A stretch of DNA of 64,000 bases from Bacillus sp. (in: firmicutes). Its GTDB lineage: Bacteria > Bacillota > Bacilli > Bacillales > Salisediminibacteriaceae. The stretch is taken from contig JAJOJL010000060.1 of assembly GCA_021208645.1 (NCBI GenBank), forward strand, positions 1 to 64,000. The letters are read 5' to 3'. The notes under the pieces were generated by a model. That model saw only the letters and a list, made by a program, of their open reading frames with translations, was not told the DNA's origin and searched no databases. The position numbers and the translations under genes were made by a program. Within the stretch, counting starts at the first letter, position 1. Each line of letters begins with the position of its first letter. Positions 4,515-62,815 of this stretch are shown piece after piece.

Positions 4515-5416
4515 TTGTTTAAAAATTTTAGTGAAGCGGCAAAAGAGCTGCTATTATTAGCGAATGAATATTTTGTAGATCAAACACTCTTCCTTACTCG
4601 CACAACAAGCACAACTATGACTGTTCTTGAGTTACAACAAAGTGACGGGGAAATTGAGTTAAATAAGGGAGATATTTTAAACTACCACGATTCTTATTGA
4701 CACCAAGTTTTATGTGGTCGGGAACCACTAATTATTAATAATTCACATGAGAACCCCATAACATCGAAATTACAGATTACCTATACTGCTAATATTCATG
4801 CTTACTTAGGTGTTCCTATTTTTTGGCAAAGTGGAGAAATATATGGGACTATTTGTGCAGTATCTTCAACACCGGCTAACTTTTCTCAAAATGATGTTAA
4901 AACATTACAGAGATTATCAACATTTTTTCGTACGTTATTGGAATGGAAAAACAAGCATATGAAGATTCTTTAACAGGATTATACAATCGCCATTACTTAC
5001 AATCTCATTTTAATGAGTTAAAAAATGGAGCTCTGTTTTATCTGGACTTAGACGGTTTTAAAAAAGTGAACGATACTCTTGGTCATGAGATGGGTGACCT
5101 TGTTTTGAAAGAAGTTGCCATCCGTATAAATACTACTCTTCGTTCTACTGATATAGGGGTTCGTTTAGGTGGAGATGAGTTTATTCTCGTATTTCCTAGT
5201 TTAATGGAGTCTGATATTATTTTTAAGAAAGCAAAAGAGATTTTAAGAAAGATGGAGAATTGGGATATATTCACAGGGGATGTGCATCTTTCTACCAGTA
5301 TCGGAATTACTACATTTACTGAAAAAGACTCAGAGTTAGCTGCCGTGTTGAAGCGAGCTGATGCCGCTCTATATGAAGCGAAACACAAAGGCAAAAATAA
5401 CTATCAGCTTCAATGA
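4515..5416 (+). pseudogene. GAF-GGDEF diguanylate cyclase, interrupted
   Basis: One gene is split by an in-frame TGA at 4698-4700 and a 1-nt frameshift near 4940. Reading through restores ~300 aa: a GAF sensor (residues ~15-145, ...GREPLIINN..., AYLGVPIFWQSGEIYGTICA) followed by a GGDEF domain (DSLTGLYNRHYL, FYLDLDGFKKVNDTLGH, RLGGDEFILVF). The GGDEF signature is intact, so the ancestral protein would make c-di-GMP in response to a GAF ligand. The TTG start at 4515 has AAGGGAG upstream. Two independent lesions make real decay somewhat more likely here than in singly frameshifted neighbours. Confidence 0.8.
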
Positions 5417-5503
5417 AGCGGGGGGACGGTTCCGGTGCTTCCAAATATGGGGTGTAACAGGTGCCGGATAACAGGTGCCTTTCACCACCCGGAATTTGTC
5501 GAA
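5415..5503 (+). repeat. PAL-B + degenerate PAL-A compound
   Basis: PAL-B 5415-5441 overlaps the last base pair of the GGDEF stop codon. PAL-A (GGTGCCTTTCACCACCCGG + AATTTGTCGAA, 5474-5503) follows after ATGGGGTGTAACAGGTG-type spacer. The same TTC..AAATGGGGTGT flank follows the MITE copy ending at 6692. Confidence 0.75.
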
Positions 5504-5564
5504 TAGGGAAAGGAATGTATGTAGATTTGTTACTTGATTGCAAGACCAAAGGTTCAAAGAATGA

Positions 5565-5606
5565 TAGCCGCCAACTCCAAGAAAAAGCGCTTGGAGTTGG
5601 CGGCTA
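5565..5606 (-). terminator. perfect 17-bp hairpin, possible terminator
   Basis: TAGCCGCCAACTCCAAG and its exact complement are separated by 8 nt. The minus-strand 3' flank is TCATTCTTT, so it could terminate the zinc-ribbon gene transcript about 150 nt beyond its stop. It is not part of the PAL families. Confidence 0.45.
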
Positions 5607-5756
5607 GGAAAAACGACCTTGTCACGTGATCAGTAAGTAATGATAATGCCCATAAAGGCACCAATGTAAAGGAAAGCCTTTTGAGAGGAGAAATTTCCTC
5701 ACAGACTATATCTCCGTCAATACGATTCTGTCTATTGTTTTTAACAGGGTGAAATG

Positions 5757-6409
5757 TTAACCAAGATGGCCATAATGATACAAATAGACGATAAAATAGA
5801 CTCCACTTAAGATTAACCCCGTTATACCCATCCACTTATTTTTCTCTTTCGCACTATTAAATTTACTAAGGCCGATTATATTTAAAACAATGCCGGCGAT
5901 AGGAATTAAACCAATTTCAAATAAGAATGTTGAAGCGATACCTACAATAAATCCCCACAAGAGTAGCGGGTTATTTCCTTTATAAGTATTATCCACTTTT
6001 TTTTGCTGGAATAACATTTTTTAGAAGATTCATTTTCGGTTAAGGAGAAAAACTCATGTGGGCTCATATCTATTATTTTTGAGTGAGTTACAGAAAGGGT
6101 GCCGCCCATATACATTTTATGTACTTGATTGTTTTCAGTTAAGATAATATAAGTTCCTGGATCATTTGTTCTTTTAATCTCTTTGTAAGTTGTATTGTGT
6201 CGAAAACGTAAGTAATCTTCTATTTCACTTAAATCCTCCGTCGGTATGGGTGCAGATGTCTTTTTGGCATCATTCGCTTCTTCTTTTATTCGACTCTGAC
6301 CTTCGTTTTCAGACTTAATTGTTATGGTTCGAAAGTCAAATGAGCAATTAGAGCAAAAGTTTGCATTATTATACCTTTCCGTACCACAATCAGGACAAAA
6401 CTTCATCAT
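5757..6409 (-). pseudogene. zinc-ribbon + DUF4190-like membrane protein, frameshifted
   Basis: The true start is probably the double ATG at 6409/6406 (MKFCPDCGTERYNNANFCSN) with GGGGTGG upstream, not the track start 60 codons earlier. The N-terminus is a CxxC...CxxC zinc ribbon. A middle segment (DLSEIEDYLRFRHNTTYKEI, ...YMGGTLSVTHSKIIDMSPHE) is followed, after a 1-nt shift in an A6 or A8 run near 6000-6020, by two membrane segments (PLLLWGFIVGIASTFLFEIG..., KWMGITGLILSGVYFIVYLY) typical of DUF4190. The repaired length is ~217 aa. Probably a small membrane sensor or scaffold; function unknown. Confidence 0.7.
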
Positions 6410-6497
6410 TACCACCCCAACAACTAGTTTTTTGCCACCTAACAGGAGGCAAATATCCTTTAATGGAATTAACAGTAGTTTTAACATAATTCCGGAA

Positions 6498-6692
6498 GCG
6501 GGGGGGACGGTTCGAAACCTGTGAAATAGTATAAATAAGTATTTGCAATACTGTGCTCGTCTCGCGCCTGATATTAGAAAACCACTCATATCAGGCTTTC
6601 AAAACATGCAACGGCTTCGTCAATGCATTTCGAGACTTGTGAAAAAGGGAAAAGCCCCCCTTTTCACAAGTCTCGGAAGGTTCCGGTGTTTC
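6498..6692 (+). mobile_element. ~195-bp MITE-like element (full copy 1)
   Basis: Begins GAAGCGGGGGGGACGGTTCG and ends GGAAGGTTCCGGTGTTTC. The ends are imperfect inverted repeats (GAAGC.. / ..GTTTC plus CCTGTGAAA / TTTTCACAAG). Inside are three successive hairpins: GCCTGATAT/ATATCAGGC, ATGCAACGGC.../...AATGCAT, and CGAGACTTGTGAAAA with its complement. No ORF. It matches the copy at 16695-16891 almost end to end. The short PAL-B palindromes elsewhere are what remains when the interior is deleted. Confidence 0.75.
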
Positions 6693-7293
6693 TAAAAATG
6701 GGGTGTGTTTGAAAAAACTGTGTGGTGTTAGTAACGGTACTTCTGGTCATTGTCAGTCGGTAATTAAAAGTGATCAGTTGCAGTCGTATATAATATAAAA
6801 TTAGTGAATTATTGAGCAAGTTGGGGTATGATAGGTTTATTGAATGGCATTTTCATTTTGACTCTTCATTGTACTAATTTTGCTGCGACTTCTGTTATAC
6901 CCTAACCTCATTGTCGACTCTCTTTTCTGTTTTGGGGGCGGAACCCCATATCATGACTATGTTTCAAAAAATTAATTATCTCATGTCCTTCTCTTTTTAT
7001 GTAAAGGCCCCTCGTTCTATAGAGACTTCACGAATTATCACTGAATCCACATTAATTTAAATTCCTAAAAGAAAACCTAAAATACGGAGGAAGGTAAGTT
7101 ATATTTACAAAATATTATGTATTGGTTTTTGACTTCCTAAGGGGGGATGTTCAGGCGCGCGCTAAGATGGATTAGTCTGTCAGTTTCTCATGTACTCCCC
7201 TTCGTTTCGGTGAGTAGATTTTATTGTGTTGGTATAGTTGGTTGTAAAGCTAATTATCGTGTCCATTTGTTTCAGTTTTCGTATAAAAATACG
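6693..7293. other. 600-bp non-coding spacer
   Basis: AT-rich sequence upstream of RAYT1 without a credible ORF on either strand and without a recognised RNA. It could hold the RAYT1 promoter, or be remnant sequence left by repeat-mediated rearrangement. Confidence 0.4.
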
Positions 7294-7320
7294 GAAGCAG
7301 GGGAACCGTCCCCATGCTTC
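7294..7320 (+). repeat. PAL-B 22 nt upstream of the RAYT1 start
   Basis: GAAGCAGGGGAACCGTCCCC + ATGCTTC, a near-perfect 27-bp hairpin ending 21 nt before the RAYT1 ATG. It sits in the 5' leader of the transposase, where it could modulate translation or be a site bound by the protein. Confidence 0.75.
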
Positions 7321-7341
7321 CACCTGAAAGGGATGGTGGCT

Positions 7342-8118
7342 ATGCCTAGGAGGGCGCGGGTGAAAAGTAGAAGCGGGATTTACCATATTATGTGGAGAGG
7401 TGCTAATGGGCAAGAGATTTTTCATGATGATCGGGATCGGATCAAGTTTCTGGATATTTTTCAAAAGTATAAACAGGAGAATGAATTGGAAGTATATGCT
7501 TGGTGTTTAATGAGTAACCATGTTCATTTGCTATTGCGAGAGGGAAATGAGTCTGTTTCTGAGACCATGAAACGGTTGGCGGTGTGCTATGTTTTTTACT
7601 ATAACTGGAAGTATAAAACAAGGGGACATTTGTTTCAGGATCGATTTCACAGTGAGGTTGTGGAAAAGAGGCAGTATTTTAAAACGGTGGTTAGGTATAT
7701 TCACCAAAATCCGGTGAAGGCAGGGATGGTTTCCCAGGTGGATGCTTGGATTTGGAGCAGTTGCCTTGGGTATTATGGTTATGATGTTTATCCTAGTGAA
7801 TTGTTGGACACTTCCTTTCTGTTTAGTATGTTTTCGGGGGATTTAACTATTGCGCAGGAGAGTTTTCGGGAGTTTAATGAGCAAGGGAATAGTGATCAAT
7901 GCCTGGAAATTGATTTTTATCCCATGAGGTTATCAGATGAAGAGGCCCGTTTAGAGATTAAAAAGGTGCTAGGTTCCGTAGAGATTGCTCAAGTAAAAAG
8001 TTTGCCTAAAGTTCCGAGAACGGAATTGTTGAAAATTGTGAAGGCCATTGAAGGCATATCCCAGCGACAAGCTGTAAGAATCTTAGGCGTATCACCGAAT
8101 TTGATATTTAAAGCGTGA
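7342..8118 (+). CDS. REP-associated tyrosine transposase RAYT1 (Y1/HUH, 258 aa)
   Basis: An HUH single-strand transposase of the IS200/IS605-like Y1 superfamily. From the ATG at 7342 the protein begins MPRRARVKSRSGIYHIMWRG. AAAGGGA lies 8 nt upstream, so the longer ORF-track start is rejected. The HUH motif is NHVHLLL (His60 and His62). The likely nucleophile is Tyr119 in RYIHQNPVKAG. The WCLMSNH and RGHLFQDRFHSE blocks are family hallmarks. The C-terminus adds a helix-turn-helix-like segment (SQRQAVRILGVSPN). No IS ends surround it, as expected for domesticated RAYTs. PAL-B lies just upstream and PAL-A begins 1 nt after its stop. Confidence 0.9.
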   Translation: MPRRARVKSRSGIYHIMWRGANGQEIFHDDRDRIKFLDIFQKYKQENELEVYAWCLMSNHVHLLLREGNESVSETMKRLAVCYVFYYNWKYKTRGHLFQDRFHSEVVEKRQYFKTVVRYIHQNPVKAGMVSQVDAWIWSSCLGYYGYDVYPSELLDTSFLFSMFSGDLTIAQESFREFNEQGNSDQCLEIDFYPMRLSDEEARLEIKKVLGSVEIAQVKSLPKVPRTELLKIVKAIEGISQRQAVRILGVSPNLIFKA

Positions 8119-8119
8119 G

Positions 8120-8152
8120 GGTGCCAAGTGTCACCACCCGGAATTTGTCGAA
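8120..8152 (+). repeat. PAL-A, 1 nt after RAYT1 stop
   Basis: GGTGCCAAGTGTCACCACCC + GGAATTTGTCGAA, with a 3-nt expansion in the loop. It is the left part of an A+D composite that recurs at 9533. Confidence 0.8.
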
Positions 8153-8292
8153 TAGGAAGCGCAAGCACCATGGAAACAAATTGATAGATTTTTTTATAGG
8201 TTTTGTTACCGTTCCCTTGCACCTGTCATAATTCACATAACTCTCAATTTCAGCAAAGGAGTTCTGGTGTAACCAAGAGAATTAATAATTTA
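8153..8292 (+). repeat. Element D copy 1 (~140 bp)
   Basis: Non-coding segment from the PAL-A foot through ...AGCAAAGGAGTTCTGG...AATTAATAATTTA. It is collinear with 9563-9695, with scattered substitutions. Both copies directly follow a PAL-A and lie in the same orientation, flanking the MFS remnant. Confidence 0.75.
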
Positions 8293-8298
8293 GGTAAG

Positions 8299-8358
8299 GG
8301 TGCCTGTCACCACCCGATATATGTCGAATAGGAAGCATGGGAACCGTCCCCCTGCTTC
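8299..8358 (+). repeat. PAL-A + PAL-B compound
   Basis: PAL-A 8299-8328 (foot altered to ATATATGTCGAA), the TAG spacer, and PAL-B 8332-8358 (GAAGCATGGGAACCGTCCCC + CTGCTTC). It ends 20 nt before the MFS remnant. Confidence 0.8.
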
Positions 8359-8378
8359 GGAGGGGAGGGGGATGACGC

Positions 8379-9565
8379 TTGCGAGTTGTGATTGGTGGGG
8401 TTTTTGCATTAATAATTGTTATGGGAATTGGCCGGTTTGGGTACACTCCTATTTTGCCAATGATGCAAGAGGCAACGGATTTTAGTGACATTTTTGCTGG
8501 GTATCTGGCCTCCAGTAACTTTTTAGGTTATTTGTTAGGGGCATTGCTAGCGGGGCTGATTAAATGGAGAGACAGAAGGAAAAGTGTTGCCTTAAAAATT
8601 GTTTTGATAATAAATATCGCTACTACGGTTGGTATGGGACTAACATCTGCTCCGGTGTTATGGCTGTTTTTAAGGTTTATATCGGGATTAACTAGTGGTG
8701 TAGTTTTTGTACTGGCTTCTAGTATTGTTATGGATGCCATTGCTAAGGTAAACCGCCTGTCTTGGTCGGGAATTTTCTATTCAGGTGTGGGTATTGGCAT
8801 TTTTTTTCACAGGTTTGTTTGTACCACTATTTCATGGCCAAGCCAATTGGCAAGGAGCTTGGATTGGATTAGGGGTTCTTGCGTTATTATTAAGTATTGT
8901 TTGTATTTTGTGGCTCAAAGAACAAGGTAGTGGAGGCGGTGAAGAAGTTTTCCAAGGGAGGGGAGAAGCAAACGTGACCCACGGTTGAAATGGTTGATCT
9001 TATCCTATGGCTGCGAAGGGGTAGGGTATATTGTCATGGGCACGTTCATTGTCGCCATGCTGTCTGATTTCCCTGGCTTTACCAACAACCCTTCCCTCAG
9101 TTGGGTGGTTGTAGGTGCAGCGGCCATTCCTTCGTGCATTTTCTGGGCAAAAATAGCTAAGGCGCTCGGGAATATAGTAACTTTACAAATCCTTTTTGCG
9201 TTACAAATAGTAGGAGTCCTTTTGCTCGTTTTTGTTTCCAATGTGATTAGCGGGTTGTTAGCATCGATTTTATTTGGAGCAACGTTTATGGGGATTACAA
9301 CGCTGTTTGTGTCAGAGGTTCGGGCGATAGCGCCTGCTAATAGTAATAGAGTGATTGGGTATTTAACGTTTGTGTATGGTATAGGACAATGATAGGTCCT
9401 TCCGTAGCGGGGTTTCTAATAGAAGTGTCCGGTAATTATGACTTCGCCCTGTATTTCTCTGCAGCCATCTTAGTGTTAGGGATGGTGTTACTGAGCGTGG
9501 GGGGAAGTAGAGGGACGGTTCGGGACCTAACAGGTGCCTGTCACCACCCGGAATTTGTCGAATAA
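8379..9565 (+). pseudogene. YbfB/YjiJ-type MFS transporter remnant, three frameshifts
   Basis: Translations from three frames join into one 12-helix major facilitator of about 395 aa: RVVIGGVFALIIVMGIGRFG, ...FTGLFVPLFHGQANWQGAWI..., LILSYGCEGVGYIVMGTFIV, then MIGPSVAGFLIEVSGNYDFA. The first part and GRFGYTPILPMM motif suggest the YbfB/YjiJ family. Shifts lie near 8790, 8985 and 9389. The last frame runs into PAL-A and would end GACHHPEFVE, a repeat-encoded tail. Three lesions plus the repeat-derived terminus indicate genuine decay more than sequencing noise. Confidence 0.75.
9533..9562 (+). repeat. PAL-A (consensus 30-nt form)
   Basis: GGTGCCTGTCACCACCCGG followed by AATTTGTCGAA without mismatch. 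It is preceded by a PAL-B/MITE scrap (GAAGTAGAGGGACGGTTCGG + GACCT). It supplies the last codons and nearly the stop of the MFS remnant. Confidence 0.85.
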
Positions 9566-9695
9566 GTAGCACCATGGGAACAAATTGATAGACTTTTTTA
9601 CAGGTTTTGTACCGTACCCTTGCATCTGTCATAATTCACATAATTTCCAATTTCAGCAAAGGAGTTCTGGGGGAACTAGGAGAATTAATAATTTA
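9563..9695 (+). repeat. Element D copy 2
   Basis: Direct repeat of 8153-8292 sharing AGCACCATGG..AACAAATTGA, GTCATAATTCACATAA and CAATTTCAGCAAAGGAGTTC. Its position after PAL-A is the same as in copy 1, so the repeated unit is PAL-A+D, about 165 bp. Confidence 0.75.
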
Positions 9696-9778
9696 TAAGA
9701 GCTTGTTCTAGTTGATTAAGGGCTGTTGACATGCTCTATTATGTTATGAAAATTATTTTCATTGAGGGGGACACTAGG

Positions 9779-9985: not shown

Positions 9986-10045
9986 GGTGCCTGTCACCAC
10001 CCGGAATTTGTCGAAAAGGAAGCAGGGGAGCCGCCCCGGTGCTTC
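9986..10045 (+). repeat. PAL-A + PAL-B compound
   Basis: Consensus PAL-A directly at the stop codon of the small membrane protein (9986-10015), AAG spacer, PAL-B 10019-10045 (GAAGCAGGGGAGCCGCCCCG + GTGCTTC). It ends 17 nt before the UbiB-like ATG, so the leader of that gene is repeat-derived. Confidence 0.85.
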
Positions 10046-10062
10046 GGAAAAGAGTGAATTCC

Positions 10063-11683: not shown

Positions 11684-11692
11684 TGGTTGTGG

Positions 11693-11748
11693 GGTGCCTG
11701 TCACCACTCGGAATTTGTCGAAAAGGAAGCAGGGGGAACCCCCGCTTC
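11693..11748 (+). repeat. PAL-A + PAL-B filling a convergent gap
   Basis: PAL-A 11693-11722 (one change in the right arm, CACTCGG) and PAL-B 11726-11748. PAL-B ends on the base next to the stop codon of the minus-strand symporter gene, so the gap between the two convergent genes is almost only repeat. Confidence 0.85.
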
Positions 11749-13173: not shown

Positions 13174-13185
13174 CCTTTCTTGGGG

Positions 13186-13250
13186 GGGGCCTGTCACCAC
13201 CCGGAATTTGTCGATAGGAAGCGTGGGAACCTTTTCGAGAAGTCTCGCTC
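13186..13250 (+). repeat. PAL-A + degenerate PAL-B upstream of gltS
   Basis: GGCCTGTCACCACCCGG + AATTTGTCGAT (13186-13214) with the left arm replaced by a G tract, then GAAGCGTGGGAACC...GAGAAGTCTCGC (13218-13250), a scrambled PAL-B/MITE end. It sits 13 nt upstream of the gltS start, on the opposite strand. Confidence 0.7.
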
Positions 13251-13301
13251 CTTTCGCAAAATCAACGCATATCCAAAATCAACATTATCCACTAACAGAA
13301 C

Positions 13302-13734: not shown

Positions 13735-13798
13735 CGGGTGGTGCCTGTCACCACCCGGAATTTGTCGAAAAGGAAGCGGGGGAACCGTCCCCATGAGT
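13735..13798 (+). repeat. full-arm PAL-A + PAL-B
   Basis: CGGGTGGTG + CCTGT + CACCACCCGG (10-bp stem) with AATTTGTCGAA foot (13735-13769), then GAAGCGGGGGAACCGTCCCC + ATGAGTC (13773-13798), whose last arm is mutated. Confidence 0.8.
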
Positions 13799-16653: not shown

Positions 16654-16891
16654 ACCGGGTGGTGCCTGTCACCACCCGGTTTTTGTCGGAAAGGAAGCAA
16701 GGGAACCGTCCGGGACCTGTGAAATAGTATAAAAAGTAATTGCAATGACTACGCTCGTTGCGCGCTTGATATGAGAAACCCACTCATATCAGGCTTTTAA
16801 AAACATGCAACGGCTTCGTTCATTGCATATCGAGACATGTGAAAAAGGAAAAGCGCCCTTTTTCACATGTCTCGAACCGTCCCCTTGCTTC
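16654..16891 (+). mobile_element. PAL-A + MITE-like element (full copy 2)
   Basis: PAL-A 16654-16690 is the longest form: ACCGGGTGGTG/CACCACCCGGT with TTTTTGTCGGA, terminator-like, 14 nt after the protease stop. The 197-bp element 16695-16891 begins GAAGCAAGGGAACCGTCCGG and ends CGAACCGTCCCCTTGCTTC; the ends are ~34-nt imperfect inverted repeats. The interior has hairpins TGATATGAG.../CTCATATCA, ATGCAA.../TTGCAT and CGAGACATGTGAAAAAGG with its complement. Its final base overlaps the stop of the next minus-strand gene. Confidence 0.8.
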
Positions 16892-18335: not shown

Positions 18336-18370
18336 CGGGTGGTGCCTGTCACCACCCGGAAATTGTCGAA
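18336..18370 (+). repeat. full-arm PAL-A
   Basis: CGGGTGGTG/CACCACCCG stem with GAAATTGTCGAA foot, 23 nt upstream of the minus-strand exported-protein ATG. The native AAAAGGAG site lies between repeat and start. Confidence 0.8.
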
Positions 18371-19209: not shown

Positions 19210-19331
19210 CCGGGTGGTGCCTGTCACCACCCGGTTTTTGTCGAAGAGGAAGCAGCGTAGAACCGTCTGAGACATGTGGAAAAGGGAAAAGCCCCCTTCT
19301 TTCACATGTCTCGAACCTTCCCCCGTGTTTT
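19210..19331 (+). repeat. full-arm PAL-A (T5) + partially deleted MITE
   Basis: CCGGGTGGTGCCTGTCACC + ACCCGGTTTTTGTCGAA (19210-19245), then GAAGCAGCGTAGAACCGTC joined straight to the last MITE hairpin (GAGACATGTGGAAAAGGG... / ...TTTCACATGTCTC) and CCGTGTTTT. It is an intermediate between the full MITE and minimal PAL-B. Confidence 0.75.
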
Positions 19332-19867: not shown

Positions 19868-19920
19868 CCCGGGTGGTGCCTGTCACCACCCGGGTTTTGT
19901 CGGATAGGAAGTGAGGAACC
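19868..19920 (+). repeat. full-arm PAL-A with T4 tail + PAL-B scrap
   Basis: CCCGGGTGGTG/CACCACCCGGG 11-bp stem, then TTTTGTCGGA and GAAGTGAGGAACCGCC. Hairpin plus T run just after a plus-strand gene would serve as an intrinsic terminator. Confidence 0.75.
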
Positions 19921-21408: not shown

Positions 21409-21473
21409 CCGGGTGGTGCCTGTCACCACCCGGTTTTTGTCGAAATGGAAGCGGGGGAACAGTCCCCTGCTTC
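21409..21473 (+). repeat. full-arm PAL-A (T5) + PAL-B filling a convergent gap
   Basis: PAL-A 21409-21444 (10-bp stem, TTTTTGTCGAA), then PAL-B 21448-21473 (GAAGCGGGGGAAC/AGTCCCCTGCTTC). It starts 7 nt after the symporter stop and ends on the base adjacent to the truA stop codon, so the whole convergent gap is repeat. Confidence 0.85.
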
Positions 21474-22212: not shown

Positions 22213-22241
22213 GTGCCTGTCACCACCCGGAATTTGTCGAA
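22213..22241 (+). repeat. PAL-A forming the truA leader
   Basis: GTGCCTGTCACCACCCGG + AATTTGTCGAA. Only one base separates it from the truA ATG on the other strand, so it replaces the usual ribosome-binding region. Confidence 0.85.
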
Positions 22242-23544: not shown

Positions 23545-25428
23545 ATGAAAGAGGCTGTTGAGGCTGAAATCAGTAGACTTGTTTCACAAATAAAAGAGGA
23601 CCAGAATCCAGATGGATCATGGTCCCATTGCTTTGAAACTTCAGTGGCCATAGATGCTTACATGATTATTTTGCTAAAATCACTCCGGTGGGATGATAAT
23701 GATCTAATTAGGAAGTTGGTGAGGAGGATTGAAGACAAGCAGTCCAATCATGGTTCGTGGAAGGCGTATCCTGATGAACAAGGGGGAAACCTTTCCTTAA
23801 CAATTGAAGCTTATTATGCCCTCCTTGCTTCTGGCGTTCGGAAAAAAACGGATGAGAATATGAAAAAAGCGGAAGTTTTCATTACGGGGAAAGGTGGCCT
23901 TAAGGAGGCTACTACCCTCACAAAGGTCATTTTAGCAGTTACAGGTCAATTACCATGGCCGAAGTTTATTCCAATACCAATAGAATTTTTGCTGCTGCCT
24001 CCTACTGCACCCATCAGCTTTTATGATTTCTCAGGATATGCTAGGGTTCATATCACTCCAATGCTAGTTGTTGCTGACAGGAAATTTGTTTTGAAAATGC
24101 CAGAATCAGCGGATCTTTCCCATTTAAACCTGCAAAGAGATGGGGGAGAGGATTGGTTTTTTCAAAAAAGAAGCCATGAATCTCGATCGTGTGTGGAATA
24201 TATTGAGCATACGGTAAAAAAATTGATCGGTTTGCCAAAGGAGCTACATGAAAAGGGTTTAAAGCGGGCCGAAAAATTCATGCTGAAAAGAATTGAAAAG
24301 GACGGAACCCTTTATAGTTACTTTATACCAACATTTCTAATGATATATGCCTTAATTGCCCTTGGCTATTCGAAAGAGGATAGGGTGGTAAAAAATGGGA
24401 TTAAAGGGTTAAAATCATTAGCTTGCGAAAGCCACGATCAAACGATGCTCCAACTAACTACCGCAGGTGTATGGAATACGGCTCTCCTGTCACATGCTCT
24501 GCAATCGGCAGGGGTTTCCTATAATGATCCTACAGTCAGCAAATCCCTTGAATATTTAGTGGAACGACAACATGAAAAGTACGGGGACTGGAAGATTCGC
24601 AATCCAAATGTATTACCAGGAGGATGGGGTTTTTCAAACATTAATACCATAAATCCAGATGTTGATGATACAACGGCCGCCTTACGGGCAATTCGCCGAT
24701 CTGCTGCAAAACAGGCAGACTACAAAGGAAGTTGGTATAAAGGAGTAAACTGGGTTTTGTCCATGCAAAATGATGATGGGGGCTGGCCTGCTTTTGAGAA
24801 AAATACGGACAATGAAATCTTAACTTGGCTTCCCATTGAAGGGTCAGAGCACGTGAGTATTGATCCGTCCAGTGCCGATTTGACGGGACGTACGTTAGAG
24901 TTTTTAGGTCGTGATATTGGGTTGACGGTGGAGCATCATCAAGTGAAAGACGCCGTAGCTTGGTTAAAGGAAAATCAAGAGAAGGACGGCTCTTGGTACG
25001 GACGGTGGGGAATTACGTATATTTATGGAACATGGGCCGCCGTTACGGGGATGAAGGCGGTGGGGGTCAGGAGTGACGATCCTTCAATTGGAAAAGGGGC
25101 TAACTGGCTGTTGAAGATTCAAAATAAAGACGGAGGCTGGGGGGAATCTTGTGGGAGTGATGTGGAGAAACGTTACGTTTCCCTTCGAGAGAGTACTCCT
25201 GTTCAGACGGCCTGGGCGTTAGATGCGTTGATAGCAGTATTTGATCAACCGACGGACGCCATCAATCGCGGGGTGGCTTGTTTACTCGATCTGCTACAAA
25301 AACGAAATTGGACCTATTCTTACCCGAACGGTGGAGGCCTGCCAGGCAGCTTTTATTTTTATTACCACAGCTATAATTTTATTTGGCCTCTCGTAACCCT
25401 AAGTCATTATATGAAGAAATACCAGTAG
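23545..25428 (+). CDS. sqhC: squalene-hopene/sporulenol cyclase family terpene cyclase (627 aa)
   Basis: A class II triterpene/sesquarterpene cyclase, monotopic on the membrane. The protonating DxDD motif is NPDVDDTTAAL. Several QW motifs are visible (QNDDGGWPAFE, QEKDGSWYGRWG, QNKDGGWGESC). The N-terminus (QIKEDQNPDGSWSHCFE), the PPTAPISFYDFSGYARVH block and the short length fit Bacillus SqhC (sporulenol synthase, acting on tetraprenyl-beta-curcumene) better than hopanoid-producing enzymes. Start ATG 23545, after a G-rich GGGGGGCGGGATGTGTAA leader. No isoprenoid partner genes lie beside it. Product assignment is inference; sporulation-linked expression is likely. Confidence 0.85.
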   Translation: MKEAVEAEISRLVSQIKEDQNPDGSWSHCFETSVAIDAYMIILLKSLRWDDNDLIRKLVRRIEDKQSNHGSWKAYPDEQGGNLSLTIEAYYALLASGVRKKTDENMKKAEVFITGKGGLKEATTLTKVILAVTGQLPWPKFIPIPIEFLLLPPTAPISFYDFSGYARVHITPMLVVADRKFVLKMPESADLSHLNLQRDGGEDWFFQKRSHESRSCVEYIEHTVKKLIGLPKELHEKGLKRAEKFMLKRIEKDGTLYSYFIPTFLMIYALIALGYSKEDRVVKNGIKGLKSLACESHDQTMLQLTTAGVWNTALLSHALQSAGVSYNDPTVSKSLEYLVERQHEKYGDWKIRNPNVLPGGWGFSNINTINPDVDDTTAALRAIRRSAAKQADYKGSWYKGVNWVLSMQNDDGGWPAFEKNTDNEILTWLPIEGSEHVSIDPSSADLTGRTLEFLGRDIGLTVEHHQVKDAVAWLKENQEKDGSWYGRWGITYIYGTWAAVTGMKAVGVRSDDPSIGKGANWLLKIQNKDGGWGESCGSDVEKRYVSLRESTPVQTAWALDALIAVFDQPTDAINRGVACLLDLLQKRNWTYSYPNGGGLPGSFYFYYHSYNFIWPLVTLSHYMKKYQ

Positions 25429-25440
25429 CGGTGCCGGTAG

Positions 25441-25471
25441 CGGTGCCTGTCACCACCCGGTTTTTGTCGAA
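25441..25471 (+). repeat. PAL-A (T5 foot) after sqhC
   Basis: CGGTGCCTGTCACCACCCGG + TTTTTGTCGAA, preceded by an extra CGGTGCCGGTAG half-unit. It begins 12 nt after the sqhC stop. Confidence 0.8.
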
Positions 25472-26770: not shown

Positions 26771-26822
26771 GCTGTCACCACCCGGTTTTTGTCGAACATA
26801 ACATCGTGACAGGCACCACCCG
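26771..26822. repeat. inverted pair of truncated PAL-A elements
   Basis: A plus-oriented right half (CTGTCACCACCCGG + TTTTTGTCGAA, 26771-26796) faces a minus-oriented left half (GTGACAGGCACCACCCGA, 26806-26822) over a 9-nt spacer, a REPIN-like head-to-head arrangement. Confidence 0.7.
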
Positions 26823-30008: not shown

Positions 30009-30044
30009 CCGGGTGGTGCCTGTCACCACCCGGTTTTTGTCGAA
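30009..30044 (+). repeat. full-arm PAL-A (T5), 1 nt after stop
   Basis: CCGGGTGGTG/CACCACCCGG with TTTTTGTCGAA; the strongest terminator-like copy, directly after the GGDEF-EAL stop codon. Confidence 0.85.
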
Positions 30045-32480: not shown

Positions 32481-32559
32481 GGTGCCTGTCACCACCCGGA
32501 ATTTGTCGAATGAGCTTTCGCGGTTTCGCGGTGCCTGTCACCACCCGTAAATTGTCGAA
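32481..32559 (+). repeat. two PAL-A copies in direct tandem
   Basis: Consensus PAL-A at 32481-32510 and a second copy at 32530-32559 with foot TAAATTGTCGAA, 19 nt apart and same orientation. Both lie inside what would otherwise be one operon. Confidence 0.85.
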
Positions 32560-33331: not shown

Positions 33332-33360
33332 GTGCCTGTCACCACCCGGAATTTGTCGAT
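33331..33360 (+). repeat. PAL-A overlapping two stop codons
   Basis: Consensus form ending TCGAT. Its first G completes the TAG of the plus-strand gene. Read on the minus strand it supplies the last codons (STNSGW) and the TGA of the CWC gene. Confidence 0.85.
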
Positions 33361-43443: not shown

Positions 43444-43500
43444 CTGGTGGTGCCTCGGGTGGTGCCCGGGTGGTGCCTGTCACCACCCGGAATTTGTCGA
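43444..43500 (+). repeat. PAL-A with stacked left arms
   Basis: Three left arms in a row (CTGGTGGTGCCT, CGGGTGGTGCC, CCGGGTGGTGCC) precede one right arm and AATTTGTCGAT. Suggests slippage or nested insertion at the palindrome. Confidence 0.75.
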
Positions 43501-43552: not shown

Positions 43553-43582
43553 GGTGCCTGTCACGACCCGAGATTTGTCGAA
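43553..43582 (+). repeat. PAL-A variant
   Basis: GGTGCCTGTCACGACCCGAG + ATTTGTCGAA; right arm mutated (CACGACCCG), foot preserved. Confidence 0.75.
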
Positions 43583-43946: not shown

Positions 43947-44534
43947 ATGGGAAGAAATGTAAGACTATGGATTCCAACCAGTTATTATCATATTACCTGC
44001 AGGGGGAACCGGCGTGATGCTCTGTTTCTAGATAGAAAGGATTATATAACATTTTTTTATATCCTACGAAAACTTCACGAAAAATACCCCATCGAACTTG
44101 CCGCTTATTGCTTAATGACAAATCACTATCATTTACTTCTTCGATCCAATCAAAATGCCATGTCAAAAATTATGGGCTTGTTAAATAAGCGATATGCCAC
44201 TTACTTTAATATTAAATATCGTTTAACAGGCCATCTTTTTGAGAAACGCTTTTATGATAAGCATATTGGGACAGAATATGGAATGTTAGAGGTTAGTAAG
44301 TATATTCATATGAACCCTTTGGAAGCGAGTATTGTTTCCCAACTGGAGGACTATCGTTGGAGCAGTTTTTGTTCCTATATGGGGCTAGGTGCCATGTCAG
44401 ACCAACACCAGCTAGAAGTTCAACCCTATTTTAACTACCGGTTGCTAGATTACTTTCAAGGTACATTAGAAGAAAAACGAATGCAACTCCGGGAGTGGTG
44501 CCTGTCACCACCCGAAAATTGTCGGAAGGTCTAG
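43947..44534 (+). CDS. REP-associated tyrosine transposase RAYT2 (Y1/HUH, 195 aa)
   Basis: Second Y1 single-strand transposase. AAGGAGAG precedes ATG 43947. MGRNVRLWIPTSYYHITCRG opens the family pattern; HUH is NHYHLLL (His60, His62), and Tyr119 in KYIHMNPLEA is the probable nucleophile, the same numbering as RAYT1. It lacks the C-terminal HTH extension of RAYT1 and is clearly a different subgroup. The last ~15 codons (EWCLSPPENCRKV) are read through a PAL-A copy, and the stop lies just beyond it. Whether that tail is ancestral or the gene was truncated by the element is open. Confidence 0.88.
   Translation: MGRNVRLWIPTSYYHITCRGNRRDALFLDRKDYITFFYILRKLHEKYPIELAAYCLMTNHYHLLLRSNQNAMSKIMGLLNKRYATYFNIKYRLTGHLFEKRFYDKHIGTEYGMLEVSKYIHMNPLEASIVSQLEDYRWSSFCSYMGLGAMSDQHQLEVQPYFNYRLLDYFQGTLEEKRMQLREWCLSPPENCRKV
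44489..44526 (+). repeat. PAL-A inside the 3' end of RAYT2
   Basis: CCGGGAGTGGTGCCTGTCAC + CACCCGAAAATTGTCGGA. The repeat is translated as part of the transposase C-terminus. Confidence 0.85.
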
Positions 44535-45876: not shown

Positions 45877-45959
45877 GGTGCCTGTCACGCCCCGAATTTT
45901 GTCACCTATCTACCCCAAAACCACCGAAATGTTTCGACATAAACCGGGTGGTGACAGGC
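45877..45959. repeat. inverted PAL-A pair that removes the next gene's N-terminus
   Basis: Plus copy 45877-45904 (GGTGCCTGTCACGCCCCG + AATTTTGTCA), 28-nt spacer, minus copy 45933-45959 (TTCGACATAAACCGGGTGG + TGACAGGC). The minus copy runs directly into ADP-ribosylglycohydrolase coding sequence. Confidence 0.75.
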
Positions 45960-46784
45960 GGGGGACCGTTCGGCTTGAATCCTGGGGAATGGACAGACGA
46001 TACATCAATGGCATTGTGTCTTGCTGAAAGCATTCTAGAGAACAAAGGATTCAACGCAAAGGACCAAATGGAGCGTTATGTAAAGTGGTACAAGGAAGGT
46101 TATTTGAGTAGCCGTGGTCACTGCTTTGATATAGGCATGACCGTTCGAGAGGCATTGGAACGCTTTTTGGCAACAGGGGAGGCCTTTAGCGGTTCTATGG
46201 ATCCTTGGAGTGCCGGGAATGGTTCCATAATGAGACTTGCGCCAGTGCCGTTGTTTTGGTCCCATGACATGGAGGCGGCCATTCATTTTTCTGGAGAGAG
46301 CTCGAGGACAACCCACCAAGCGGAGGAGGCTGTGGATGCTTGCCACTACTTTGGTGCCTTAATAGCAGGGGCAGTCAACGGAATGACTAAAGACAATTTG
46401 TTGTCCGGGAATTTTGCCCAGTTTGTGGTGGAAAAACTACTTGGCAGAGAGTTAAAAGGGAAAATAAAAGAAGTGGCAGAAGGCTCCTTTAAGTTTCGAA
46501 CCCCTCCTGAAATTAATGGGAAAGGCTATGTTGTATCTTCGTTAGAAGCGGCCCTTTGGGGATTTTATCATACGGAGAATTTCCAGGACGGCTTATTGAT
46601 GGTGGTCAATCTTGGGGAGGATGCGGATACGACAGGTGCCATCTACGGCCAATTGGCAGGTGTATATTACGGATTGGATGCAATCCCTTTTAAGTGGCGG
46701 GAAAAACTCGTTCAGAAAGAGTTAATCATGTCCTTAGGGGAGCAACTCTATCACCTGCAGGAAAATTTGTTTAACGGAGACTAG
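45960..46784 (+). pseudogene. ADP-ribosylglycohydrolase (DraG family), N-terminus replaced by repeat
   Basis: Removes ADP-ribose from proteins or nucleic acids in the intact family. Visible: GGGPFGLNPGEWTDDTSMAL (first metal-binding TDD), WSAGNGSIMRLAPV, RTTHQAEEAVDACHYF and the second metal site GEDADTTGAIYGQLAG. The normal ~50-residue start, including its metal-binding Glu and GDALG-like block, is missing; the frame instead enters from an inverted PAL-A. Only GTG codons inside the repeat could start it, and no Shine-Dalgarno precedes them. Most likely a dead gene cut by the repeat pair. Confidence 0.8.
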
Positions 46785-47270: not shown

Positions 47271-47299
47271 GGTGCCTGTCACCACCCGGAATTTGTCGA
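47271..47299 (+). repeat. PAL-A as the whole intergenic region and RBS
   Basis: GGTGCCTGTCACCACCCGG + AATTTGTCGA, bounded on one side by the AOR stop and on the other by one base before the MoaD-like ATG. Nothing else lies between the two genes. Confidence 0.9.
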
Positions 47300-49021: not shown

Positions 49022-49054
49022 CGTGGTGCCTGTCACCACCCGGTTTTTGTCGAA
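49022..49054 (+). repeat. PAL-A (T5) in a divergent promoter region
   Basis: CGTGGTGCCTGTCACCACCC + GGTTTTTGTCGAA, 15 nt upstream of the AOR start on the opposite strand. Here it cannot be a terminator for a plus-strand gene. Confidence 0.85.
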
Positions 49055-50248: not shown

Positions 50249-50471
50249 ACCCGAAAACATTTGGTGATAATCTTGCCCTAAAACATGGTGGAAGCTGAAA
50301 TAAGGGAAGGAAAAGGGGAGAATCGTGCCCTAAAATGATGAGCGAGAGGAATTAAGGGAAGGAAAAGAGAAGAATTCTGCCCTTAAACGATGAGCAAGTA
50401 GATTTAAGGGAAGGAAAAGGAGAGAAACCTCCCCTAAAACGTCAGGCAAGCAGAATTAAGGGGAGGAAAGC
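50249..50471 (+). repeat. 52-bp tandem repeat array (~4 units)
   Basis: Exact period of 52 bp: TAAGGGAAGGAAAAGG begins at 50301, 50353, 50405 and (shortened) 50457, with a degenerate unit before them. Each unit holds TAAGGGAAGGAAAA...GCCCTAAAA and ...GATGAGC..G. It is non-coding and sits between thiM and the next gene. Confidence 0.85.
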
Positions 50472-51185: not shown

Positions 51186-51214
51186 GTGCCTGTCACCACC
51201 CGATATATGTCGAA
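51185..51214 (+). repeat. PAL-A overlapping a stop codon
   Basis: GGTGCCTGTCACCACCCGA + TATATGTCGAA. Its first G is the last base of the TAG of the corrected upstream frame. Confidence 0.8.
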
Positions 51215-51265: not shown

Positions 51266-51309
51266 TCGTTGTTAAGCCTACCAAACCAAACAAACTCATC
51301 CAAACCTAC

Positions 51310-54242: not shown

Positions 54243-54264
54243 ATTCTTAAGGGGGGAGGGGCTT

Positions 54265-54777: not shown

Positions 54778-54792
54778 AGGCAAAACCCCCAT

Positions 54793-59565: not shown

Positions 59566-59567
59566 GC

Positions 59568-59673
59568 GGTGCCTGTCACCACCCGGAAATTGTCGAAAGA
59601 ATGAATGGGGCGTATCGATCGGGTGGTGTCTGGGTGGTGAGACACTACCGGGGTACCACCCGGATCTTGTCGT
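59568..59673 (+). repeat. PAL-A + expanded degenerate PAL-A
   Basis: First copy 59568-59597 (foot GAAATTGTCGAA). Second, 59620-59673, has the CGGGTGGT...ACCACCCGG arms kept 24 nt apart with an internal GTGTC/GACAC hairpin, foot ATCTTGTCG. Confidence 0.7.
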
Positions 59674-59779
59674 AAAAGGGTTGTGGTTTTTTGGGGAAGG
59701 ATACATATCGTATTATTTTGGTTTGGGTCAACACCAAACGGTTTCGTACAATAACATGAATGGGAATGATCCTTAATCG

Positions 59780-60256
59780 TCACTTGTTCATCTCACTAGT
59801 AATATAATCCGTTTCGTTCTGGAAAAATTGCAAGATGGCTTTTGTATTATGAGTGAGGCTCTCTGGGATGGATTCAACGGGGAAAAATTTTGCGTCCCTC
59901 ACTTCGTTGTTGTCAGGAGTGATATTCCCATTGTAATTATGGGAAGTGTAGATGGTAATGATGCTGTATACTTCATCTCCATTCGGATATTGATGATAAA
60001 ATTCCTTCCCCGAAAAGGTTTTGAAATAATGAAACCCAGTTAAGGTAATGGCCAGTTCTTCTTTTAACTCTCGTACCACCGTCTCCTCGAAAGTTTCCCC
60101 AAGTTCCATGTAGCCTCCTGGAAGTCCCCAATTGTTCGTGTCGTTGCGGTTCACTAATAGAATACGGTTGTCCCTGTCGGTGAGGATCACACCAGCGGAG
60201 TTAAGGATGATGGGGGTACTTCCAACAAGCTTGCGAATGTCTTGGACATAACCCAA
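59780..60256 (-). CDS. Nudix hydrolase (158 aa)
   Basis: Hydrolyses a nucleoside diphosphate-X. Nudix box GGYMELGETFEETVVRELKEE (Gx5Ex7REUxEE) is intact. N-terminus IRKLVGSTPIILNSAGVILT and WGLPGG are typical of the ADP-ribose/NTP pyrophosphohydrolase-like group. The TTG start has only a distant AAAGG site; a frame-shifted ATG lies nearby, so the start is uncertain. Monocistronic. Confidence 0.85.
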   Translation of the reverse strand: MGYVQDIRKLVGSTPIILNSAGVILTDRDNRILLVNRNDTNNWGLPGGYMELGETFEETVVRELKEELAITLTGFHYFKTFSGKEFYHQYPNGDEVYSIITIYTSHNYNGNITPDNNEVRDAKFFPVESIPESLTHNTKAILQFFQNETDYITSEMNK

Positions 60257-60336
60257 CGCATATTACCTGCCTTTCTTTTGTGAAGTTATTGAGTAGTATG
60301 CGCTGGTGAAAAGGAAGTAATTCAACGGGTGGACAT

Positions 60337-60370
60337 CGGGTGGTGACAGGCACCACCCGAAATATGTCGA
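60337..60370. repeat. PAL-A with inverted hairpin on a normal foot
   Basis: CGGGTGGTGACAGGCACCAC + CCGAAATATGTCGA. The loop reads ACAGG (minus orientation) while the TGTCGA foot is in plus orientation: the stem-loop has flipped in place. It abuts the stop of the FtsW-like gene. Confidence 0.75.
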
Positions 60371-61705
60371 TTATGAGGTCTCTACCATTGTTGGCTCTAC
60401 TATGTCTTTTCTGCGGTAGACACTGAGGACAAGTCCCAGTACTGCCCCGTAGTGGAATACCATGCTCCCTCCATAGCTAATGAAGGGAAGGGAGACACCC
60501 ATGATTGGCAACACGCCAAGTCCCATAAGAATGTTCCAGAAAATTGGTACAGTAAAAATAGCAGCGCCGCCCATTACGATGAGCCTGCCAAATAGATCTT
60601 TTGTTTTAAGTCCATTCATCGTGATCCGTAAAACAAACACGAACAGCAGTAAGCAAAGGAAGATACCAAATGTCCAGCCGAGGGAATAAACGAGATATGG
60701 AAAAACAAAATCCGTGTGGGCCTCTGGCAGTACTTCCATGTTGATTCCGTTCATCAGCCCGTGACCGAACCAGCCTGCTTCGGCGAGAACATCCCTAATT
60801 ACCAAGATAATATAGCCAGCCCCGTGGGGATCTGCTTCTGGAGTGATAAAGGCCGATAGCCGATCTATAATATGCTGCCTGCCGCTGGCATAGACGTAAA
60901 TGACCATCAGCCAGAACATACCAATACCCCGCTAGCCAGCAGAATCCTCACGGCTAACTGCTTTCGAATTTGAGAAAAGGCAAACATGGTAACGACGGTA
61001 AAAAAAGTAAATAATGCTAAGCATAAAGTTCGGCAGTAACAAGTAGAGGAAAAGCGGCAGCCAAAACATGCCCTGCAGCAGTCCTTGTTTTTTCCAACCA
61101 TCCCATTCATTGATTTTGCTAAAAATGGCAGCCCAGGCAATGAAAAAGAAAAATAAGCTAATGGCTACATGAATATGGATCCCCAATGTAGGAAAGGATA
61201 GCCACCATTTTGCCCCGTTAACCATTGTACCGGTCATAAGTATCATGACTACCATTAGCAAACCGGCCCCGTAAAATCCCATCCAATACCGTCCAAGCTT
61301 TCGGTAATCAAAAAACAGGAAGCAGACCATAACAAGGATAGCAAGGCTGTACCAAATTGCCTGTCGTGTTACGAAAAAGGATCCAGGTATTTCAAAACGG
61401 GGGATTCCTCCGACCAGAGGGAGAAAGCCTATGGTAACGATGGCGGCAAATATGGCCACGAGGATCCAATCCATTTTTGGCCGATGAATCTTGTTAAGGC
61501 CTTCCCCAATGGTAAATGGATTACCCATTTCCTTGATGGCTTTTTCCTCTGCTTCTTCTTTCGAACTTGCACTCCCAGATTTCATGAAGGATTGACTCAG
61601 TTCGTTCAAGTGGTGGGTAAGCTCCTTCTTGATCATGCTATGGGCGCTTTTAGCCTTAACTTTTGAGGTCACTTTTGTTAAAAATTCATTAAACTGGTTG
61701 CTCAT
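60371..61705 (-). pseudogene. FtsW/RodA/SpoVE-like protein with N-terminal HAAS-type domain, two frameshifts
   Basis: SEDS-family lipid II polymerase/flippase fold. N-terminal ~75 residues form a DUF1700/HAAS-like cytoplasmic segment (MIKKELTHHLNELSQSFMKS, EMGNPFTIGEGLNKIHR), then ~10 membrane helices ending in the SEDS signature PFISYGGSMV. Repairs: one base from the A/T7 run at ~61000 (...IIYFFTVVTMFAFSQIRKQL) and near 60915 (...GVLVMFWLMVIYVYASG). Repaired ~444 aa. The ATG overlaps the PadR gene stop by 4 nt. Likely acts in envelope stress rather than septation. Confidence 0.82.
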
Positions 61706-62160
61706 GTTGATACCTCCTTCAGCAAGCGTCTTAAGCTACTAGTTTGTTTTGCTGAGGATCTTTCTTTTGTTGCGCTGGCTAACTGCTTTTTTCCCTTAAC
61801 TGTTAAAGAATAGAATTTTTGTTCCTCCCCCTTAACTTCCTTCCACATGGACTGAATAATTCCTCTATTTTCCAATTCGTGAAGTAAGCTATAAAGCTGT
61901 CCTTCCTTTTTCGAAAAACTGTACTCGTTTTTTTGGAAAAGGTGAGTGGAAATGGCGAAGCCCGTTTGCCATTCAGCTTGTTTGATGGATTCTAAAACAG
62001 CGTAAATCGTTTCTTCTTTCCAAAAGTGAAGGGGAGATTTCGTTAAATTACCGCCTCGCATCCCTTCCCTAACTGCATCTTTTCGCTCCTCAGAAAATGA
62101 AAGGTCCTTAAACATAGCGTTTTTCATGGCCCCTTTAAGTTTATTAAGTGGATCACTCAT
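61702..62160 (-). CDS. PadR-family regulator (152 aa)
   Basis: Winged-helix repressor. KEETIYAVLESIKQAEWQTG, then EGQLYSLLHELENRGIIQSM (recognition helix and wing) and a basic C-terminal helix. An N-terminal extension of ~45 residues (KLKGAMKNAMFKDLSFSEER) precedes the wHTH. Overlaps sigma and FtsW-like genes by 4 nt on both sides, so it is translationally coupled. It probably controls the operon it sits in. Confidence 0.8.
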   Translation of the reverse strand: MSDPLNKLKGAMKNAMFKDLSFSEERKDAVREGMRGGNLTKSPLHFWKEETIYAVLESIKQAEWQTGFAISTHLFQKNEYSFSKKEGQLYSLLHELENRGIIQSMWKEVKGEEQKFYSLTVKGKKQLASATKERSSAKQTSSLRRLLKEVST

Positions 62161-62726
62161 CGGTTAAACTCCTCCTTTAATAAATCTTTTAACAGTTCTT
62201 TTGCCCGTTTCAAGCGAGTTTTTAACGTATTGGGATTGATGCCTGTGATGTTGCTCATTTCCGTGTAGGTGAGCTCCTCATAGAAGTGAAGAAACACGAC
62301 CTCCCGATACTTCAAGGGGAGGCTTATTACCGCATCAGCTAACCGTTTCTCATCGCTTTTCGTTATTACTTCATCCTCCACTTCCTTTTCTTTAGTTGGC
62401 AAAAAATCAGCCACCTTATTGTTTAAGGAAATTTTTCGATAGTGCCAACTACGCAAATAGTCTTTACAATGATTGCTCGCAATCCGATACAGCCATGTTT
62501 TCATGGAAGATTCCCCTTTGAACAGGGGCAGTTTCTCGTAGCATTTCAGGAAGATTTCCTGTGTCAAATCCTCTGCTGTTGCCTGATTCCTTACGTATGT
62601 ATATACGAAATGAAGGATGTCATCGCCATAATCCTCCATGAGCTGATCAATAATCGCCTCGCGACTGTCCGTGACCTCATCATTAACTGCCGCCGTTACC
62701 GCAGCAGCCTGCTCCCAATCTTCCAT
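62157..62726 (-). CDS. ECF-type RNA polymerase sigma factor (189 aa)
   Basis: Region 2: HFVYTYVRNQATAEDLTQEIFLKCYEKL and MKTWLYRIASNHCKDYLR. Region 4: LADAVISLPLKYREVVFLHF, YEELTYTEMSNITG, NPNTLKTRLKRAKELLK. Resembles SigV/SigX-like ECF factors. ATG 62726 with AAAGGAGGG. No anti-sigma gene is linked; the HAAS-FtsW protein two genes down and the PadR regulator may replace it. First gene of a coupled three-gene operon. Confidence 0.9.
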   Translation of the reverse strand: MEDWEQAAAVTAAVNDEVTDSREAIIDQLMEDYGDDILHFVYTYVRNQATAEDLTQEIFLKCYEKLPLFKGESSMKTWLYRIASNHCKDYLRSWHYRKISLNNKVADFLPTKEKEVEDEVITKSDEKRLADAVISLPLKYREVVFLHFYEELTYTEMSNITGINPNTLKTRLKRAKELLKDLLKEEFNR

Positions 62727-62742
62727 CCATTACCCTCCTTTG

Positions 62743-62815
62743 CGTGGTGCCTGTCACCACCCGGTTTATGTCGAATCTCTGTAGTAGTATTCGGGTGGTG
62801 ACAGGCACCGCCCGG
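62743..62815. repeat. REPIN-like inverted PAL-A pair
   Basis: Plus copy 62743-62775 (CGTGGTGCCTGTCACCACCC + GGTTTATGTCGAA), 16-nt spacer, hairpin in minus orientation 62792-62815 (CGGGTGGTGACAGGCACC + GCCCGG). It lies in the promoter region of the sigma operon. Confidence 0.8.

Follow-up and report, generated by a model that had tools for sequence, protein, structure and literature searches.

The window analysed here, a stretch of 64,000 nucleotides of contig JAJOJL010000060.1 (C145; 72,122 bases) from a Bacillus sp. assembly, contains two genes, RAYT1 and RAYT2, together with two kinds of short repeats, PAL-A and PAL-B. The genes code for Y1/HUH proteins of the type of the REP-associated tyrosine transposases (RAYTs; REP, repetitive extragenic palindrome). 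The assembly is a metagenome-assembled genome of 3.95 Mb in 167 contigs, which is 76.6% complete and 5.2% contaminated. An earlier sequence-only reading of the window had described the repeats and genes as one dense REP/RAYT system with two transposases. The positions of all features are compiled in Table 1.

Repeats and RAYT genes in the window

The constant part of PAL-A, GGTG-CCTGT-CACC, is followed by CACCCG and then by a foot; written foot-first, the consensus is TTCGACA-n5-CGGGnnGTGACAGGCACC. This tag is neither GTAG nor CGTC. The 19-mer GGTGCCTGTCACCACCCGG matches the window 36 times with at most three mismatches, whereas 0.01 matches are expected, and the repeat is therefore real. The figure of about 36 copies given previously was nevertheless too high, because six matches on the minus strand are the same palindromes seen from the opposite strand. 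A search for the hairpin together with its foot yielded 32 units, 30 of which read from hairpin to foot on the plus strand and two on the minus strand, and bore out that the foot lies on only one side of the hairpin. The description as a long palindrome holds for about one third of the copies, which have the full 10-bp stem, and not for the majority. Since most copies have no long left arm, a generic detector (hairpin plus GTCGA) overlooked the majority of them. The spacer is 5 nt long in 120 of 121 units selected by the foot TCGACA plus CGGG; here the spacer is the test, not the foot. In some genomes the hairpin is replaced and the stem retained (GTCACTGTGAC), as found in 7 of 25 variants compared with 6.5% in shuffles.

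At least 26 of the 32 units are intergenic, and several of the remainder lie within doubtful short open reading frames (ORFs). With 32 PAL-A units against 67 called ORFs, the statement that the palindromes occupy most gaps was too strong. The same applies to a dense genome-wide system: a 22-base PAL-A pattern (at most three mismatches; reversed control pattern, 0 matches) was found 54 times in the assembly, and 31 of these matches are on C145, so that the density is regional and not genomic. Further matches are on several other contigs of the bin, which argues against a repeat limited to one stray contig. The window holds two inverted PAL-A pairs and all other units are single or direct, which differs from the mostly close inverted pairs of REPINs. 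Inverted pairs are present in genome G024.

Two further observations concern the surroundings of PAL-A. At the left edge, flanking bases and the first bases of the unit (GGTGCC) are tandemly repeated in 8 of 214 distinct units, with a break in the hairpin loop, as compared to one such case at the foot side. These microduplications are located at 5452-5475, 25425-25443 and 43446-43473 of the window and at L020:5261, L089:9540 and 12764, L121:3618 and L265:14069 of other loci; they resemble the product of slippage at the hairpin, either by a polymerase or during strand transfer. A sequence of about 130 bp occurs at 8164-8292 and at 9568-9695 (84-93% identity), each time directly following a PAL-A; a second PAL-A borders the far end of the 8164-8292 copy only.

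Both proteins match PF01797 and score close to the cut-off of 80 bits of the NCBIfam model NF047646 (REP_Tyr_transpos), RAYT2 with 80.4 bits and RAYT1, just below it, with 78.9 bits, in agreement with the assignment of two RAYT-type proteins. The HUH histidines, the tyrosine and the Y---NP motif are invariant across 30 aligned relatives of RAYT2. Its predicted model (pLDDT 90) most closely resembles, among solved structures, 4er8, which is TnpA-REP bound to its REP (E 6e-9, TM 0.77 by target length); the transposases of IS608 and ISDra2 rank lower. The model thus gives a high-confidence prediction that RAYT2 has the fold of TnpA-REP of E. coli. Its last ten or so codons (44491-44534) consist of PAL-A sequence and encode WCLSPPENCRKV, residues that are missing from its relatives. 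Members of the RAYT2 clade are mostly present once per genome. RAYT2 was not found at more than 40% identity in plasmid or phage records, the full PAL-A consensus has no exact match in viral contigs, and a 35-nt PAL-A query gave 0 matches in plasmids; a plasmid or phage as vehicle is thus unsupported.

The start of RAYT1 is likely at 7342, as orthologues begin at the corresponding Met. Matches of its C-terminus to the helix-turn-helix (HTH) families HTH_23 and HTH_28 are weak and below the cut-off. The core of PAL-B is the 11-mer GGGGACGGTTC, and the 13 core sites counted in the window agree with the previous estimate. As a side observation, an element of about 200 bp with inverted PAL-B-type ends occurs at 6490-6690 and 16693-16890 (about 78% identity), and parts related to it are located at 1222-1264 and 19267-19323; a composite PAL-B element is possible. 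In contig C2 of genome G015 (357000-419000), PAL-B cores form close, REPIN-like inverted pairs about 40-130 bp apart, with dozens per 60 kb.

Pairing of each repeat with a RAYT clade

The distribution of PAL-A was determined in 220 genomes drawn evenly across the order, where a profile match above about 219 bits, the point at which scores drop, defined membership in the RAYT2 clade. At least three PAL-A copies were found in 35 of 41 genomes with a RAYT2-clade gene and in 20 of 179 without (Fisher 2e-20). Because the survey genomes are related to each other, the contrast at the genus level is a safer figure than this pooled test: in 16 genera holding both kinds of genomes, the members with RAYT2 are richer in PAL-A in 13 and poorer in one.

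The neighbourhood of the genes gave the same picture. Relatives of RAYT2 were gathered from named genomes (79 loci in Bacillaceae and some Clostridium), and a tree of 116 RAYT sequences placed 71 in a supported RAYT2 clade and 45 outside. The foot plus CGGG of PAL-A is found within 1.5 kb of 28 of the 71 clade members and of two of the 45 others, which are RAYT1 of the window, located inside the PAL-A field, and one of its relatives. Reversed decoy patterns gave counts near zero both at RAYT loci and in the genome survey. When the REP label is counted on this tree by parsimony, the result is noisy, since the strict pattern overlooks variant REPs. Within 400 bp of related RAYT2 genes, the foot points toward the gene at 12 of 12 upstream and at 11 of 15 downstream sites. 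Inverted flanks were thus seen in related loci; the PAL-A copies flanking RAYT2 in the window itself all have one orientation.

PAL-B follows the other gene. Seven of the 10 RAYT1 relatives (54-69% identity) have GGGGACGGTTC within 1.5 kb, compared with none of seven RAYT2-clade loci and one of 22 loci of other short RAYTs; PAL-A is found in one of the 10 RAYT1-clade loci. At least 10 copies of GGGGACGGTTC are contained in 7 of 10 genomes with a RAYT1-clade gene and in 2 of 26 others (p=4e-4). Copy numbers thus follow the presence of the respective RAYT in the genomes surveyed, and since the two repeats track different clades, PAL-A that of RAYT2 and PAL-B that of RAYT1, there are two systems and not one with two enzymes. 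The assignment to the REP/RAYT type is retained on the grounds of co-occurrence, gene neighbourhood, protein family and predicted fold. We consider it quite probable that two REP-type systems coexist, with PAL-A representing non-autonomous REPs made by RAYT2 and PAL-B belonging to RAYT1. In this explanation, RAYT2 is a domesticated IS200/IS605-like HuH protein and PAL-B copies are hairpin/terminal-inverted-repeat elements.

By eye, other short RAYTs have flanking repeats of their own, such as GTTACCTGGTAAC beside L067 and GTCATAGTGACAGTTG beside L084. Several further unnamed REP families therefore probably exist in Bacillaceae.

Elsewhere in the window, 52-nt direct repeats stand in tandem at 50269-50469. 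Several genes are apparently split by a frameshift or stop (region 8379-9632 and others), for example the transporter pieces 8379-8930 and 8985-9392, which may reflect an assembly error or decay.

Table 1. RAYT genes, PAL-A units (from the hairpin-plus-foot scan) and PAL-B cores in the window.
Feature	Position	Strand	Remarks
RAYT1	7342..8118	+	long Y1/HUH protein, C-terminal HTH-like region; PF01797, NF047646; ORF open from 7147
RAYT2	43947..44534	+	195-aa Y1/HUH protein, HUH H60/H62, Tyr119, probable PAL-A partner; PF01797, NF047646
PAL-A unit	5478..5502	+	hairpin to foot
PAL-A unit	8127..8151	+	9 bp past RAYT1
PAL-A unit	8303..8327	+	then PAL-B
PAL-A unit	9537..9561	+	
PAL-A unit	9990..10014	+	then PAL-B-like hairpin
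PAL-A unit	11697..11721	+	
PAL-A unit	13190..13214	+	
PAL-A unit	13744..13768	+	then PAL-B
PAL-A unit	16665..16689	+	full 10-bp stem
PAL-A unit	18345..18369	+	
PAL-A unit	19220..19244	+	full stem
PAL-A unit	19879..19903	+	full stem
PAL-A unit	21419..21443	+	full stem, then PAL-B
PAL-A unit	22216..22240	+	
PAL-A unit	25446..25470	+	left-edge microduplication
PAL-A unit	26771..26795	+	adjoining partial inverted copy
PAL-A unit	30019..30043	+	full stem
PAL-A unit	32485..32509	+	direct pair with 32534..32558
PAL-A unit	32534..32558	+	direct pair with 32485..32509
PAL-A unit	33335..33359	+	
PAL-A unit	43476..43500	+	upstream of RAYT2, left edge triplicated
PAL-A unit	43557..43581	+	upstream of RAYT2
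PAL-A unit	44501..44525	+	within RAYT2 3' end
PAL-A unit	45881..45905	+	degenerate, inverted pair with 45934..45958
PAL-A unit	45934..45958	-	inverted, pair with 45881..45905
PAL-A unit	47275..47299	+	
PAL-A unit	49029..49053	+	
PAL-A unit	51189..51213	+	
PAL-A unit	59572..59596	+	
PAL-A unit	60346..60370	+	inverted loop
PAL-A unit	62750..62774	+	REPIN-like inverted pair with 62782..62805
PAL-A hairpin	62782..62805	-	foot not intact
PAL-B core	1254..1264	-	
PAL-B core	4404..4414	+	
PAL-B core	5422..5432	+	
PAL-B core	6503..6513	+	
PAL-B core	7303..7313	-	immediately upstream of RAYT1
PAL-B core	8341..8351	-	
PAL-B core	9511..9521	+	1 mismatch
PAL-B core	13782..13792	-	
PAL-B core	16703..16713	-	2 mismatches
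PAL-B core	16874..16884	-	
PAL-B core	19313..19323	-	1 mismatch
PAL-B core	21457..21467	-	1 mismatch
PAL-B-like core	45961..45971	+	1 mismatch

Clustering, strand orientation and origin of PAL-A

PAL-A copies are clustered, frequently in the surroundings of RAYT2, and equally strongly so in the good assemblies G104, G155 and G113. The single 5.2-Mb contig of G104 has its eight copies confined to one stretch of 24 kb, in which RAYT2 is also located. Copies on the main contig of G113 (3.65 Mb) are spaced at a median of 6.9 kb, where uniform scatter would give 64 kb, and none is located between 1.06 and 2.90 Mb, where the GC skew changes sign around the terminus; this origin-proximal placement pertains to one genome and is not to be generalised. 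Orientation follows the replication arms. Foot-first units of G113 are 5 plus and 15 minus on one arm and 17 plus and 2 minus on the other (p=7e-5), and 32 of the 39 copies read from hairpin to foot along the G-rich leading strand. PAL-A orientation in G104 and G053 agrees with this trend; that in L020, a piece of a smaller contig from the window's bin, opposes it. At 48 of 49 loci, the coding strand of RAYT2 is also the one rich in G, and far-upstream PAL-A copies are in matching orientation at a ratio of 49:3. For the window, a GC skew of +0.08 accompanies the strand ratio of 30:2.

From the clade pairing, the intact catalytic residues, the predicted fold, the foot with its spacer, the clustering, the strand orientation and the decay without enzyme, we infer a scheme of binding, cutting and copying at the replication fork. 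Most likely, RAYT2 would bind the PAL-A hairpin as folded single-stranded DNA, and Tyr119 would cut at the TTCGACA foot. Insertion of IS200/IS605 elements is linked to the lagging-strand template. By analogy, a copied REP would be joined to single-stranded DNA nearby, on the lagging-strand template of the same replicating arm, which would lead to local clusters and to a single orientation relative to fork movement. After loss of RAYT2, the copies would only decay. The G-rich strand has the sequence of the lagging-strand template, and on it the PAL-A foot lies 3' of the hairpin; if this strand is the substrate, the 3' foot contrasts with E. coli REPs, in which GTAG is on the 5' side.

Several observations weigh against this explanation. 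PAL-A is also found in genomes without a RAYT2-clade gene, namely G113 (39 copies), G182 (20), G072 (45) and G242 (39). The strict expectation that the palindromes do not occur without a RAYT thus fails, since the only Y1 genes of G113 are two identical IS200-type genes and a profile search of G182 gave no Y1_Tnp match. Conversely, five genomes with RAYT2 carry zero or almost zero PAL-A. A clean pair of sites with and without PAL-A, which would indicate recent movement, was not found when RAYT2 loci forming close pairs (L099/L105, L101/L111 and others) were aligned. The residues of E. coli TnpA-REP that read the guide are W94, Q95, E100 and H101 (PMC6006769); the corresponding stretch WQPRFWEH aligns to FEKRFYDK in RAYT2 and differs. 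Judged from the alignment, this change would fit the different foot and is not proof of it. Finally, the membership of C145 in its bin is uncertain, and the contig may be misbinned.

For genomes such as G113, relics after enzyme loss are the better reading, because the copies are more degenerate and both congeners, G074 and G219, keep RAYT2 together with 50 and 47 copies. Perfect PAL-A make up 8 of 39 copies in G113 and 54 of 97 in the two congeners (p=2e-4; p=0.02 with the common CGAG variant allowed). The copies of G182, G072 and G242 are likewise read as relics, although another RAYT may serve those of G072 and G242.

A mixed bin, with C145 stemming from another Bacillaceae genome, could have produced the high density as an artefact. 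This is suggested by the completeness and contamination values, by a GC content of 0.43 at the top of the range compared to 0.35-0.42 in the other pieces read, and by a symporter whose nearest relative (67%) is a protein from a genome of another family. The presence of the same PAL-A on other contigs of the bin and the equal clustering in good assemblies make this rather unlikely, and the REP/RAYT reading would be unaffected by it. The single system of the sequence-only reading, with both RAYTs acting on both repeats, derives its appeal from the window, where both genes sit among both repeats and PAL-A and PAL-B are frequently side by side. Elsewhere, the loci and the genome counts separate the repeats according to different genes, so that this view is largely refuted and very improbable.

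A role of PAL-A without any contribution of RAYT2 was considered in two forms. Copies often begin 5-60 bp past a stop codon and some hairpins are followed by TTTTT, as would be expected of a selected transcription terminator or RNA-processing element with incidental proximity to RAYTs. However, many copies lack a T run or a long stem, PAL-A presence follows RAYT2, and the strand does not follow the upstream gene as in intrinsic terminators: 7 of 8 units in intergenic spacers with a minus-strand gene on their left (-+ and --) still read plus, and gene direction therefore does not explain the strand. There is hence very little probability for this role. Hardly more can be said for a host motif organising the chromosome, that is, a protein-binding site skewed along the replication arm with RAYT2 as a hitch-hiker. 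The strong strand skew, the empty terminus half of G113 and the persistence there without a RAYT are in line with it; the absence of any match from 135 of the 220 related genomes, the tight clusters around the RAYT gene and the degeneration of PAL-A where RAYT2 is missing are not. Synthesis of PAL-A by RAYT2 remains the preferred explanation.

A tentative extension, nearly as likely as not, is that TCGACA-tagged REPs form a third REP superfamily, distributed over many of the genera in the order. Its enzyme would act at the replication fork and leave copies near the RAYT gene, on one arm and with hairpin-to-foot direction along the leading strand. If so, the direction of the fork and former RAYT activity could be read from the position and orientation of REPs.

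Relation to known systems and significance

PAL-A and RAYT2 resemble the GTAG REPtrons of enterobacteria and pseudomonads (PMC2817692, PMC3116915, PMC8266576) in that a low-copy HuH-Y gene has its own hairpin repeats beside it and further copies of them are dispersed over intergenic DNA, as well as in the inverted flanks and the fold of 4er8. In place of GT[AG]G at the hairpin, however, there is a TTCGACA foot with a spacer of 5 nt; guide residues of the W94/Q95 type are not conserved, and the copies are mainly single, co-oriented and regionally clustered, in Bacillaceae. GTAG REPs have been reported from Proteobacteria, Cyanobacteria, Chloroflexi and the PVC group (PMC3733652). CGTC palindromic repeats are, like PAL-A, short hairpins tagged on one side; they were described in five phyla without a dedicated or flanking transposase gene, in a text that does not contain the word Firmicutes (PMC3733652). 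PAL-A differs from them in tag and stem and has a flanking transposase gene. A low-copy HuH-Y1 gene of the RAYT/TnpA-REP type and co-occurring intergenic REPs are thus present, the latter with the exceptions G113, G182, G072 and G242, and neither a GT[AG]G nor a CGTC tag is found at the hairpin foot.

RAYT1 may share a C-terminal HTH-like region, suggested by weak matches, with the TIRYTs and TnpAY1 subclass 2.1 (PMC3733652, PMC6006769), and both RAYT1 and RAYT2 carry their Y---NP signature. The GGGGAC core of PAL-B is near the TIR consensus GGGGWSAS of TIRYTs; GGGGACGG is one base off and, unlike the TIRYT repeats, forms a hairpin with species-specific stems. PAL-B and RAYT1 are probably a TIRYT-like system. 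Subclass-specific REPs of TnpAY1 proteins have been listed, subclass 2.1 being without REP-like sequences, and TIRYTs with GGGGWSAS repeats are mentioned in the same text, from which the words Firmicutes and Bacillus are absent (PMC6006769). Compared by described features, RAYT2 differs from subclass 2.1 in having PAL-A beside it. With IS200/IS605 it has the Y1 HuH chemistry in common; it is, however, usually single-copy and not carried as a repeated insertion sequence. A search of the open-access literature for RAYT with Firmicutes or Bacillus gave no pertinent report, and PAL-A/RAYT2 is a new form of REP/RAYT, without precedent in Bacillaceae or with this foot in the literature searched.

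For annotation, PAL-A and PAL-B should be regarded as mobile repeats and not as regulatory sites. The new foot, the matched enzyme in dozens of cultured Bacillaceae, the natural enzyme losses and the signature in strand and position lead to direct tests, by which PAL-A makes the substrate strand, the role of replication and the decay following enzyme loss accessible. The system thereby bears on how RAYTs spread REPs and on why RAYT genes persist in single copy.

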